DNA of 32,646 nt from Candidatus Latescibacter sp. (GTDB lineage Bacteria > Latescibacterota > Latescibacteria > Latescibacterales > Latescibacteraceae): positions 1 through 32,646 of the forward strand of contig JAUYCD010000022.1 in NCBI GenBank assembly GCA_030692375.1, in the 5' to 3' direction. This document shows positions 188 through 22,300 of this stretch, piece after piece (position 1 is the stretch's first letter; each line of letters starts with the position of its first letter). The notes below the pieces were generated by a model. The model did not search any database, was not told the origin of the DNA, and saw nothing but the letters and a program-made list of their open reading frames with translations. The position numbers and the translations under genes are program-made.

Positions 188-234
188 AGTAAAATGAGAA
201 TGAAATGAACAATATAACAGTATTTACTTAAAAA

Positions 235-272
235 TAATAAAAAAGAGAGGGAAGTTTTTTACATCCCTCTCT
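235..272 (-). terminator. Rho-independent terminator of the envelope operon
   Basis: Read on the minus strand, AGAGAGGGA (272-264) pairs with TCCCTCTCT (252-244) around an 11-nt A-rich loop and runs into a T-rich tail. It lies 35 bp past the stop codon of the last gene of the block (307), as expected for the end of a long transcript. Confidence 0.85.
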
Positions 273-306
273 CAAGATGGAAAAAGCACTGTCCTTTTAT
301 TACGTG

Positions 307-1512
307 CTATTTCTGAGTCTGATCTACATAAACAGTAAAGTCAAGTGGATATAATACATTAACCGGAAGGGCGGGACCTTTTACGATGTTTGTGCCTTCA
401 AGCGGCATATTCTCGATTTTTTCGAATTTCAACGTCTTGATTACATCGAGAATGCAGTTCATGAAAGGTTCACTATTGATACCGGTCACCTCAACAACAT
501 TTTGTTTTGAAACAATTCCGCTGGGATCGATAGTGAACGAAACACCCATATGGCCCGGGCTTACCTGCCCCCTGCGGTATCTATCCAGGAAGCACTTTTC
601 CATCTGGGATACATTTGCTTCAAGCATCTGGTTAATAGCACGGTTATTTCGGGCTGTATCATTGGTACGGGCATTAACCAACTGAGACGGGTCGGTCACC
701 TTAACTCTGACTTTTTCCCGCTCCAATTCCGCCTGCCTCATTTCTCTCGTAACAGTCACCATATCAATCTTTCGATCGATATTGATGGAGATTGTTTTCG
801 AATCTGAAGGGCGATTAAATGCATCGAAGCGGTAAACAACATCATTCAGAACCAGTGTAGCCCTTTTTACTTCCGGCCGCAACGGGTCAAAGGTTATCAA
901 ACCAGTGTAGCTGTCCCCGCGGAAGATTTCCCCCTCAAGTCCGAAGCTTTTGCCACGCACCATTCCGAGGCGCATCTCGTAGCGGTAGAATTCATTCCCG
1001 GACTGACCAAGCAACGTTCGATAATAATCCTCAAAACTCTTTCCGAATTTTGCAGAAGCGATATTTACCGTATATGCGTGGTACGTTTCACCGGTATCGG
1101 TAATGAGAACCGCATTGGTCGGATCCAGCCGCATCTTTGGAAAAGTTCTGTTGATCAAGGTCACGCTAAACACTGTAAATCGATTCGGTGTGTATCCAAC
1201 ATTAGGTTCAATCCAGTTTCCATAGGTATATGGATTTGTTGAATACTCCCCATTCCTCGATTCATCAGGGAAAAGGGCGTTCAATTCTGCTTCTTTCACG
1301 TATCTCACCACAACGCTTGAACCGCCCAGATCATAAATAAGTGCTCCTGTATCCTTATCCAGAGATTTTAAAGGATCTTTTTCCTCAAGATTGGGTACCA
1401 GATAAGAACTATATCTGATTTCAGGAGGATACAGGAAACAATTAGCCAGCACAAGCAGCGGTAAAACAAAGATACTGGAAATGATTATTTTCTTTCTTAC
1501 ACGTAAGGACAT
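307..1512 (-). CDS. TonB-like protein with AgmX/PglI-type C-terminal domain
   Basis: This 401-residue envelope protein has an N-terminal hydrophobic segment (about residues 8-25) ending in LANC, a poor lipobox, so it may be a signal anchor rather than a lipoprotein. The C-terminal 100 residues match the AgmX/PglI C-terminal pattern: a paired-cysteine module with MEKCF and MNCILDV flanking VSFTIDPSGIV, related to the TonB C-terminal fold. Such domains usually reach across the periplasm and pass work from an ExbBD motor to an outer-membrane partner. The ATG at 1512 is chosen over the upstream GTG (1524) because AGAAGGTGG lies 8 nt before it. It is the last gene of the run ExbB-ExbD-ExbD-DUF4159 and is followed by a terminator. 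Its exact partner is not known. Confidence 0.7.
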   Translation of the reverse strand: MSLRVRKKIIISSIFVLPLLVLANCFLYPPEIRYSSYLVPNLEEKDPLKSLDKDTGALIYDLGGSSVVVRYVKEAELNALFPDESRNGEYSTNPYTYGNWIEPNVGYTPNRFTVFSVTLINRTFPKMRLDPTNAVLITDTGETYHAYTVNIASAKFGKSFEDYYRTLLGQSGNEFYRYEMRLGMVRGKSFGLEGEIFRGDSYTGLITFDPLRPEVKRATLVLNDVVYRFDAFNRPSDSKTISINIDRKIDMVTVTREMRQAELEREKVRVKVTDPSQLVNARTNDTARNNRAINQMLEANVSQMEKCFLDRYRRGQVSPGHMGVSFTIDPSGIVSKQNVVEVTGINSEPFMNCILDVIKTLKFEKIENMPLEGTNIVKGPALPVNVLYPLDFTVYVDQTQK

Positions 1513-18363: not shown

Positions 18364-18429
18364 AAACTGTCCGCAACTGTCCGAATTCGTACACTTACTG
18401 TCCGTTATCGGACATAAAACGGACAGTTT
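18364..18429 (+). promoter_or_regulatory. Cluster of five phased TGTCCG/CGGACA operator sites
   Basis: TGTCCG occurs at 18368, 18378 and 18399 and its complement CGGACA at 18409 and 18420. Start-to-start distances are 10, 21, 10 and 11 bp, so all five lie on one face of the helix. Two 16-bp dyads are visible: TGTCCGAATTCGTACA (18378-18393, one mismatched pair) and TGTCCGTTATCGGACA (18399-18414, arms perfect). The whole is closed by a perfect 10-bp inverted repeat AAACTGTCCG / CGGACAGTTT. It lies about 65-125 bp before the sigma54 promoter, the usual place for an enhancer-binding activator. The binding protein is not in the window. Confidence 0.7.
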
Positions 18430-18488
18430 CAAATAGAAAATTTGGTGATAATATTCATAAGCGTATAGTAAACAATAACATAAGATTT

Positions 18489-18505
18489 CAGGCACACTTA
18501 TTGCT
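18489..18505 (+). promoter_or_regulatory. Sigma54 (RpoN) promoter
   Basis: CAGGCACACTTATTGCT has GG (18491-18492) and GC (18503-18504) separated by exactly 10 bp. It matches the RpoN consensus TGGCAC-N5-TTGC at nearly every position. Transcription would start near 18516, some 60 nt before the ATG at 18579. An activator cluster sits at the right distance upstream, which greatly strengthens the call. Confidence 0.8.
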
Positions 18506-18578
18506 AATTTAATATATAAAGCTCCATTGCCCGTTCACTAGGAGCGTTCATCCAACCATACCACCAAGAGAAGGCTGT

Positions 18579-19232
18579 ATGCAGAAGTCAGGAATCATTC
18601 TTGCCCTGTTATGCTTATGGAGCGCTGCGGAAGCATTATCCGGTGAGCTTCCCGCTCTCCTGCTCCAGGAAGGGAAGAATACCGTATCTATCGCTATTCT
18701 CAATCAGGGGGCGACCGACACCCGCCTGAAGGTGGAAGTGGACCAAAGCAAGCTCCCTTCCTGGCTGACAGTCCTGCCCGGAGCAGAAACAATCGCCGCG
18801 CCAAAAGGCCAAAAAAGCATTGAAAAACTTGCACTCACCCTCCAGGTGAAGGGTGCTCCGCCTGATGCGCAGGTACAGGTTCCCCTGACACTGAAGGACA
18901 GCGCCGGGGAACGTTGGAACTATACTCTCCTAGTTCATCTTGCCCCGCGCCCGACAGAGAATGCTCTCTATTCGAACGCTCCCAATCCTTTCAATCCCAC
19001 AACCTCTATCAGTTTTGCCCTGAAAGAAAACGGTCATGCCTCACTGACCATTTTCAATTCACTGGGGCAGAAAGTGCGCACCCTTTTAGACCGCCCTCAG
19101 AGCGCCGGGGTTCATACGGTTATGTGGGATAGCCGCGACGATGGCGGCAGGGCGGTATCGAGCGGAGTATATCTGTACAAACTCAAGGTGGGAAATTTCA
19201 CTCAAACCAGGAAAATGCTCTTGACGCAATAG
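18579..19232 (+). CDS. Secreted protein with T9SS-type C-terminal sorting domain (first gene of sigma54 unit)
   Basis: The 217-residue protein has a signal peptide (IILALLCLWSAAEALSG). An Ig-like middle domain follows, with LLLQEGKNTVSIAILNQG and SKLPSWLTV as in bacterial BACON/CARDB-like sandwiches. From residue 132 it carries a FlgD-like sorting domain: NAPNPFNPTTSISF, LTIFNSLGQKVRTLL, AGVHTVMWDSRDDGGR, SSGVYLYKLKVG and RKMLL. Such tails direct type IX-like export and surface attachment. No enzyme motif is present, so a structural or binding role is likely. It is preceded by AGAAGG and the sigma54 promoter and followed 13 bp later by the TPR gene. Confidence 0.88.
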   Translation: MQKSGIILALLCLWSAAEALSGELPALLLQEGKNTVSIAILNQGATDTRLKVEVDQSKLPSWLTVLPGAETIAAPKGQKSIEKLALTLQVKGAPPDAQVQVPLTLKDSAGERWNYTLLVHLAPRPTENALYSNAPNPFNPTTSISFALKENGHASLTIFNSLGQKVRTLLDRPQSAGVHTVMWDSRDDGGRAVSSGVYLYKLKVGNFTQTRKMLLTQ

Positions 19233-19245
19233 GGAGAATATAGTC

Positions 19246-19890
19246 ATGCACATTACAAAAAGATATACATGGATAGTATTCTGCGCCCTGGGGACACTCA
19301 TTCTCGGAATCGGGATACTAGCAACATCCGGCGAGAGCACGAAAGCAACAACCACTTCTCCGGATAACGAGATTGTTTTAACCATTGGAGAAATAGACCG
19401 TTCGGCATTGAATGAAGGCGACACCCTTCGGAAAGCTCACAAGTACAAAGAAGCTATCGTCGCTTATCAGAAGGTTCTGGATACCCAGGGAATAGCACAA
19501 TCGGTTCGTGCAGAGGCGGAATACGACATCGGGCTTTCTCATGCCTGGCTGGGTGAGTTCGATAAGGCGGGAATCATTTTTGCGGGTATGCTTACTACCT
19601 ATAAAGATGACCCCGATGCTATCGGGTATACGCAGTTCTGCCTGGCCTGGCTTGAGGTGCAAAAGGGAAAATACCGGGATGCGATAACGAGGCTGGAAGG
19701 TTCTCTGGTAAAAGCTAACATCACAGATCAGGAATTGGCGGCGCAAACGCAGTTAATGATTGGTAGAACTTATCTTCTATTTCTCAACAATCCTGTAAAT
19801 GCTCAGTTGGCCTTCAAGAAAGTAAGAGACAAGTATCCTGATACTAGAGCCGCAAAGCATCCTTATGTTAAACCACTTGATGAAAATTAA
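19246..19890 (+). CDS. Membrane-anchored or exported TPR protein
   Basis: The 214-residue protein has a basic start and one hydrophobic segment (about 8-26, VFCALGTLILGIGILA) that could be a signal peptide or anchor. Helical TPR-like repeats follow: DTLRKAHKYKEAIVAYQKVL, EAEYDIGLSHAWLGEFDKAG, FCLAWLEVQKGKYRDAITRL and IGRTYLLFLNNPVNAQLAF. These form protein-protein contact surfaces, most likely in the periplasm. It sits between the sorting-domain gene and the transglutaminase-like gene in the same transcription unit and may hold or chaperone those products. No sorting domain is present, so it probably stays in the cell envelope. Confidence 0.8.
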   Translation: MHITKRYTWIVFCALGTLILGIGILATSGESTKATTTSPDNEIVLTIGEIDRSALNEGDTLRKAHKYKEAIVAYQKVLDTQGIAQSVRAEAEYDIGLSHAWLGEFDKAGIIFAGMLTTYKDDPDAIGYTQFCLAWLEVQKGKYRDAITRLEGSLVKANITDQELAAQTQLMIGRTYLLFLNNPVNAQLAFKKVRDKYPDTRAAKHPYVKPLDEN

Positions 19891-21125: not shown

Positions 21126-21977
21126 ATGAAAAAATCAAAAATTTTATGTATAGCTTTGATATATGCTATTTCCTGGCTTATTTCTACTTCGAGTTTCAGC
21201 CAGGAATATTATGTCAAAGGAAAGTATCGACTAATCCGCTCAAATACAGAAGTATCTCTTGTGGCCGGTGTGAATGTTCTGGCTCTCGTCCAGAAATATG
21301 CGAACGACTTCGCAGCAAATTTAGTTGCTTCTCAGCAAAACTCGGTTGTGGAATATGGTCTATACCGAAAAAGCGATCAACAAGGAATTTCTATGATGAT
21401 CGGATTGCACTCTAGTGTGCGCGAGGCTGAGGAATCGATGCTCGATGCCCTGAATTACCAGATCAATATTATCATGGAGGAATCCCCACAGTATAAAATC
21501 GGCGAATCTGCCTGGTCCCGTCCTTCTAAGTATCAACCAGGATTCGCATTTATACGAAAGAATGCAGTTGTTTATCTACATTCAAGTTACCCCTCCACGA
21601 ATGTGGATATTATTGGCCTGGCGCGGGCTATAGATCAAGACCTTGTAAATGGCGCGCCATATGTAACGATCCTTGACCAAATTGCCCCACCTGTCATTCA
21701 TTCAGTTGACCTTTCCAAGCCTGTCTTAAGTGAAGGCGAACGGAGTTCGCTAACTATAAACGCTAGTGATCCAAATGGTCGTCGCATTATCCTTTACGGT
21801 AATTCACTTAAAGGTTTCGGAGGTGTTGAAAATGAAAGCATAATACCTTGGAACGATCTCCGTGTCATCCAGCTATTACATGATGAACAATTAACAGGTA
21901 CGCACACAATTAAATGTTGGGTAGTAAATGAAGATAATCTCTTTTCACAAGTCAAAGAGGTTCAGGTAACTTTTTAG
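21126..21977 (+). CDS. Exported two-domain protein, probably 5' part of a frameshifted sorting-domain gene
   Basis: The 283-residue frame begins after a strong GGAGG site. It has a signal peptide ending in SSFSQ. An N-terminal alpha/beta domain (about 30-190; YGLYRKSDQQGISMMIGLH, WSRPSKYQPGFAFIRKNAV) resembles small domains of unknown function that report on DUF6599-like exported proteins. Then comes an Ig-like domain (about 195-283; PPVIHSVDLSKPVLSEGE, HTIKCWVVNEDNLFSQVKEV). It stops at TAG 21975 inside a run of five T. The next frame continues at once into a sorting domain, so the intact product would be about 390 residues. The Ig-like domain before a sorting tail is the normal architecture. 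Function unknown. Confidence 0.75.
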   Translation: MKKSKILCIALIYAISWLISTSSFSQEYYVKGKYRLIRSNTEVSLVAGVNVLALVQKYANDFAANLVASQQNSVVEYGLYRKSDQQGISMMIGLHSSVREAEESMLDALNYQINIIMEESPQYKIGESAWSRPSKYQPGFAFIRKNAVVYLHSSYPSTNVDIIGLARAIDQDLVNGAPYVTILDQIAPPVIHSVDLSKPVLSEGERSSLTINASDPNGRRIILYGNSLKGFGGVENESIIPWNDLRVIQLLHDEQLTGTHTIKCWVVNEDNLFSQVKEVQVTF

Positions 21978-21988
21978 CTCCCTCCGCG

Positions 21989-22300
21989 GTGAATGATGAA
22001 GACGCCGCCGCGGAGGTACCCAATGTCTTCACCCTATTCCAGAACACGCCGAACCCGTTCAACCCGGCGACCACGATTAGCTATAACCTCAGGAAATCTT
22101 CGCTAATAAGCCTGAAGGTGTACGATCTGCTCGGACGGGAGGTGACTACCCTTGCGGAGGGAGATACGCCCGCTGGCCAGCACCGAGTGGTGTGGAACGG
22201 CTCGGACTACAGCAGAAAGCAGGTTTCTTCGGGAGTATACTTCTATCGGCTTATTGCCGGGGGAAGAGAGGAAACGAGGAAGATGCTGCTGGCTCGTTAG
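21989..22300 (+). CDS. T9SS-type sorting domain separated from the preceding gene by a -1 frameshift
   Basis: This frame encodes a complete FlgD-like sorting domain: QNTPNPFNPATTISYNL, LKVYDLLGREVTTLAEG, AGQHRVVWNGSDYS, SSGVYFYRLIAGG and RKMLL. It has no signal peptide of its own and no ribosome binding site before the nominal GTG at 21989. The frame stays open upstream through 21971, directly overlapping the stop of the preceding gene, so a one-base change in TTTTT joins the two. The base composition switches to GC-rich exactly at the junction. Treat it as the 3' part of 21126-21977 unless reads confirm the stop. The domain call is firm; the status as a separate gene is doubtful. Confidence 0.75.
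   Translation: MNDEDAAAEVPNVFTLFQNTPNPFNPATTISYNLRKSSLISLKVYDLLGREVTTLAEGDTPAGQHRVVWNGSDYSRKQVSSGVYFYRLIAGGREETRKMLLAR

Follow-up and report, generated by a model that had tools for sequence, protein, structure and literature searches.

The question raised by this locus is what a closely spaced group of TGTCCG/CGGACA hexamers does in front of an operon for surface proteins, and whether it serves this operon or a wider regulon. The window, i.e. the whole stretch of 32,646 nucleotides analysed, corresponds to contig C22 in the draft genome of Candidatus Latescibacter sp., which comprises 3.9 Mb in 273 contigs and is 97% complete. An earlier note, made from the letters of the window, had described the region as a sigma54 promoter with a helically phased five-site enhancer. 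As judged by sequence comparison, the region very probably serves one unit of a sigma54 regulon as its promoter and upstream activating sequence; from this we infer binding of an activator and activation of transcription. The elements concerned are as follows.

18364 to 18373, no strand assigned: left arm of the outer inverted repeat, AAACTGTCCG, holding an accessory half-site TGTCCG at 18368–18373 (from the sequence and the eight-locus comparison)
18378 to 18393, forward strand: dyad 1, TGTCCG-AATT-CGTACA, a predicted activator-dimer site
18399 to 18414, forward strand: dyad 2, TGTCCG-TTAT-CGGACA, a predicted activator-dimer site
18420 to 18429, reverse strand: right arm of the outer inverted repeat, CGGACAGTTT, with the promoter-proximal half-site CGGACA at 18420–18425
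18490 to 18505, forward strand: sigma54 promoter AGGCACACTTATTGCT, with GG at 18491–18492, GC at 18503–18504 and a predicted transcript start near 18516

The five exact hexamers were found as described, starting at 18368, 18378 and 18399 on the forward strand and at 18409 and 18420 on the reverse strand, at spacings of 10, 21, 10 and 11 bp, and so were the perfect 10-bp outer inverted repeat and the two 16-bp dyads, the second of which is exact and the first of which has one change. The changed half of dyad 1, CGTACA at 18388–18393, is a sixth half-site that completes this dyad. The half-site form in the genome is TGT(C/A)CG, and the array therefore reads > > < > < <. The description as a five-site enhancer holds for the sites themselves, but the array is better called two dyads plus accessory half-sites, with the sixth half-site added. 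The cluster is far beyond chance. Five hexamers fall within 55 bp in the array, whereas 1000 first-order Markov shuffles never gave more than three, and the two dyads are the only matches in the window to TGTCCG-N4-CGGACA with at most one mismatch (0.05 expected; two reached in no shuffle).

The spacing of the GG-N10-GC promoter is exact, as had been claimed. A single promoter match of such quality is not beyond chance alone, 0.78 being expected in the window; the match is significant because this element and its distance recur at each of the eight genomic loci where the array was found. These loci (on C22, C45, C83, C103, C105, C169, C217 and C9) were revealed by searching the genome for the dyad, as the earlier note had proposed. 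Each has a 37-bp double dyad, paired at a period of 21 bp, and the reversed-pattern control gave none. A GG-N10-GC promoter follows in all eight cases; the promoters resemble TGGCAC-N5-TTGC, agree at 10–12 of 12 scored positions and have 10 bases between the -24 GG and the -12 GC. The last half-site of the array and the -24 GG are separated by 65–67 bases at every locus, when TGGACA is counted as a half-site at C9. The accessory half-site at 18368 is unique to the window among the eight loci. The promoter-proximal half-site, which at C22 is followed by the -24 GG 65 bases further on, is common to C22, C83, C105 and C169, and at these four loci the array lies 11 bp, or one helical turn, further upstream. 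The array is thus moved upstream where a third half-site is added, and the distance to the promoter is held. The genome also includes rpoN, the presence of which the earlier note had left to be checked (C255, PF04552, E=1.4e-58).

Downstream of the promoter, the window encodes the following products.

18579 to 19232, forward strand: first gene of the operon, a 217-aa exported protein with a T9SS type A sorting tail / FlgD_ig fold (TIGR04183, 39.7 bits)
19246 to 19890, forward strand: 214-aa TPR protein with an N-terminal hydrophobic segment
19906 to 21099, forward strand: 397-aa protein, family unknown, with a signal-like N-terminus; C169 has a gene of like size at the same place
21126 to 21977, forward strand: 283-aa protein, family unknown, with a signal-like N-terminus
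21989 to 22300, forward strand: 103-aa ORF that is a T9SS-type sorting tail (TIGR04183, 40.5 bits)

Exported proteins with sorting tails had been predicted here, and their TIGR04183 scores exceed the cut-off of 23 bits; the sorting tails are therefore of the T9SS type. Such type A tails are found in six of the eight units, namely C22 (two ORFs), C83, C105, C169, C217 and C9; at C105 and C83 it is not the first gene but a later one that carries the tail. Reg_prop propellers are encoded at C103, C217 and C9, and a DUF4159 protein at C83. The unit at C45 encodes a carboxypeptidase-regulatory-like lipoprotein and has no sorting tail, and that at C103 is cut off by the contig end. Genome-wide, 91 ORFs have a T9SS-type tail above the cut-off, and a homologue of the SprA translocon is present on C185, scoring 670.6 bits over the joined frame against a cut-off of 200. 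In the regulon gene at C217 (L031, 4560–2386, reverse strand), codon 64 is an in-frame TAG that separates the signal peptide from the remainder of the propeller protein; this reflects a pseudogene, a sequencing error or recoding.

The layout is conserved in two relatives from sister genera of the same family, G002 and G003, where it precedes homologous genes. In G003, one 37-bp site with a promoter at the same distance lies before a Reg_prop homologue, and a promoter-anchored search gave three further sites with the second dyad changed to TGTCTC-N5-CGGACA. This 38-bp variant has 12 matches in G003 and four in G002 (reversed-pattern control, 0), bringing the totals to about 13 and about five sites, respectively. 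The -24 GG lies 64–68 bases downstream in 11 of the 16 variant sites and 77 bases downstream in one. The genes behind them encode Reg_prop, FG-GAP-like and DUF4159 proteins homologous to targets in the window's genome, and G002 further has a degenerate dyad pair before its DUF4159 orthologue. The earlier note had named the absence of rpoN and a lack of conservation among relatives as grounds against its reading; with rpoN present and the sites conserved in the sister genomes, both of these computable objections therefore fail. No convincing copy of the site was found in relatives outside the family, and no tandem-dyad site was detected in the family relative G001. Two matches were rejected: one on C69 of G002, with two mismatches, lies inside an ORF, and one in the phylum relative G062 does not belong to the regulon, being a 21-bp repeat that adjoins an activator gene of another HTH type, with its promoter 215 bp away.

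A scan of public genomes for TGTNCG-N4-CGNACA occurring twice at 21 bp gave at least 118 loci (L048–L165) versus an estimated 0.2 or so expected. The matches listed come from Bacteroidota, Pseudomonadota, Myxococcota, Thermodesulfobacteriota, Fidelibacterota and other phyla, and ABC-exporter genes often lie beside them: the neighbours encode MacB/FtsX permeases with LolD-like ATPases, HlyD adaptors and TolC-type channels, as well as a sigma54 activator of the response-regulator type. Among them, at least 43 sigma54-like promoters lie within 50–180 bp by a strict promoter score, as compared with 0.9 expected. Promoter distances for the matches listed cluster at 88–92, 98–103 and 107–112 (Rayleigh p about 5e-11 for a period of 10.5), in steps of about 10.5–11 bp, and are thus quantised by the helix. 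The tie of sigma54 enhancers to helical phase is usually said to be loose, and the cross-phylum operators provide a natural data set on how strictly such enhancers follow it.

The reading of the layout as a sigma54 activator system, made in the earlier note, is supported by rpoN, six activator genes, the seven further loci with a promoter and conservation in two relatives. In the proposed mechanism, a dimeric Fis-type enhancer-binding protein would bind the two TGT(C/A)CG-N4-CG(G/T)ACA dyads, which occupy one face of the DNA at an interval of two helical turns, and extra half-sites on that face would help binding at some loci. The bound activator would then assemble, reach the -24 GG through a short loop of fixed helical phase (65–67 bases) and remodel RpoN-RNA polymerase at GG-N10-GC. 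Eight units would be switched on in this way, and what they mostly encode is exported proteins that bear a T9SS-type sorting tail or have a propeller/adhesin-like fold.

It is highly improbable that the dyads are instead operators of a repressor or another regulator unrelated to sigma54, next to an incidental promoter match. One such match is indeed expected by chance in the window (0.78), but the distance is fixed at all eight loci and at most sister-genome sites, distances are helically quantised across phyla, and sigma54 activator genes lie at most 2.5 kb from the motif at 42 of the 118 outside loci listed. An origin of the arrays as copies of a duplicated or mobile segment that carries its own promoter, rather than as a selected regulon, was given a slightly smaller chance still. 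The operons at C22, C105 and C169 are clearly paralogous, with sequences alike up to the promoter; these loci are duplicates of one another and therefore not independent. Duplication is contradicted, however, by C45, C83, C103, C217 and C9, the flanks of which are unrelated and which have only the dyads and promoter in common, with different spacers and coding sequences, and by the sister genomes, which have their own site sets with a changed second dyad.

The search for NtrC-type regulators that the earlier note had suggested gave six full sigma54 activators (PF00158 plus PF02954), encoded on C103, C120, C148, C182, C233 and C48. The C103 protein has a GAF-GAF-PAS-AAA-HTH architecture with the GAFTGA loop and Walker motifs, and its gene shares a contig with one of the eight regulon sites. 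Its recognition helix, SRATLYRR, is a 75% match to those of motif-side activators elsewhere (among the matches listed), as compared with 25–38% for the other five. In a tree, the C103 family forms a clade separate from the motif-side response regulators among the matches listed. We rate the C103 GAF-GAF-PAS protein as the leading candidate activator on these sequence grounds, at slightly less than an even chance. Certainty that C103 is the regulator is reduced, since a dyad of another kind adjoins its gene: the sigma54 promoter next to C103-type genes of family f1 and several f8 genomes is preceded by TGTCTCA-N4/5-TGAGACA.

The chances are evenly balanced that the architecture is unchanged and the activator is one of the proteins encoded on C120, C148, C182, C233 and C48, or else a protein that the draft assembly lacks, this being 97% complete in 273 contigs. 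The dyad beside C103-type genes would then be the natural site of the C103 activator, and G001 has a C103 orthologue, yet no detected tandem dyads. Against this, the recognition helices of the other five differ strongly from those of motif-side activators among the matches listed, the sigma54 promoter beside the C48 hydrogenase cluster is without a tandem dyad, and the second dyad of the G002 and G003 variant sites usually carries a TGTCTC half-site, as does the dyad beside the C103-type gene. The occurrence of TGTCTC in both dyad types is a hint, though not proof, that one protein may read both.

The C48 promoter, TGGCACTATAATTGCT (L037, position 8239, reverse strand), is a good sigma54 promoter; its neighbours are hydrogenase-like genes and a histidine kinase/activator pair, and dyads are absent there.

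The nearest functional parallel to the regulon is the PEP-CTERM/PrsR system, in which sorting-tail genes are likewise under sigma54 with an upstream activator motif. In that PrsK/PrsR system, the genes are preceded by a sigma54 promoter and, upstream, by a 17-nt motif that may occur more than once; the spacer averages 62.8 nt (SD 10.6), and a Fis-type sigma54 activator was inferred (Haft et al. 2006, PMC1569441); RpoN-dependence has been shown for one gene (PMC9850573). In contrast, the tails in the window are T9SS-type (TIGR04183 / FlgD_ig), and no PEP-CTERM tail was matched among the window targets; the operator is a 21-bp-spaced TGTCCG-N4-CGGACA pair, whereas the PEP-CTERM motif ends in TTTACA; and the promoter distance varies by 3 bp, as compared with the SD of 10.6 there. 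None of the six activators passes the PrsR model TIGR02915 (at most 395 bits, cut-off 502.6). The regulon is not a member of the PEP-CTERM regulon because the tails differ and no activator passes this model. It would be the second case, besides PEP-CTERM, of sorting-tail proteins under sigma54. It also amounts to a first prediction, for an uncultured phylum, of a surface-protein regulon together with its operator, its promoter and candidate activators.

The double dyad with its 21-bp period, the promoter and the phasing are shared with MacB/HlyD/TolC exporter systems of Bacteroidota and Pseudomonadota. Activators on the exporter side have the recognition helix TRA(A/S)LYRR (among the matches listed), which is similar to SRATLYRR of C103, but are receiver-domain proteins, and they have exporters rather than surface proteins as targets. 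In the tree, the 34 motif-locus response regulators among the matches listed form one fully supported clade, with all six activators of the window's genome outside it. No response regulator of the MacB-associated clade was found among the six, and common descent with these regulators was rejected by the tree. Location of the motif next to exporter genes fits a 2025 survey in which the sigma54 targets of gamma-proteobacteria, Opitutia and Bacteroidia are enriched in the MacB-type permease COG0577 (PMC12316311). Regulation is likewise linked to type IX secretion in the PorX/PorY-SigP system of Porphyromonas gingivalis (PMC4800418, PMC8265659), but there an ECF sigma factor controls the T9SS machinery, whereas the regulon of the window has sigma54 and exported cargo.

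The switch in the window would work as an ordinary sigma54 enhancer. Like NifA/NtrC/GlrR-type enhancers, it combines a dyad upstream activating sequence, a GG-N10-GC promoter and an AAA+ activator, and its dyads fit TGT-N10-ACA, which we take to be the NifA-like outline. It differs in its half-site, in the obligatory tandem pair and in the fixed short distance. No description of this operator was found in the literature that links sigma-54 to MacB/HlyD or that deals with T9SS in Latescibacteria. A broader reading, which we regard as speculative and rather unlikely, is that unrelated activator lineages across many phyla adopted the tandem-dyad operator code independently for cell-envelope export, and that in this Latescibacterota lineage a GAF-domain activator, which also drives a structured small RNA beside its gene, took the code over for control of the T9SS surface proteome.

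A sigma54 promoter lies 165–208 nt downstream of the GAF-GAF-PAS activator gene on C103 (L028, about 205–347, reverse strand) and also at L169, L170 and L171, with the dyad TGTCTCA-N4/5-TGAGACA upstream. It is followed by a conserved hairpin RNA of 16 predicted pairs, six of which show a compensatory change (own genome and three family members), and then, as read from the sequence, by a terminator-like hairpin with a T-run. The hairpin RNA, for which a search of Rfam gave no match, looks like a candidate sigma54-dependent structured small RNA beside its activator. GlrR/QseF and GlmY are arranged in a like manner (PMC6075780, PMC8745638). In another, distant family of this phylum (L172, L173, L175–L178, L180 and L183), the sigma54 promoter that follows the orthologous activator gene instead precedes a gene for a small Cys/His-rich protein (containing GYCPRHYQQIRRHGRLTPERE).
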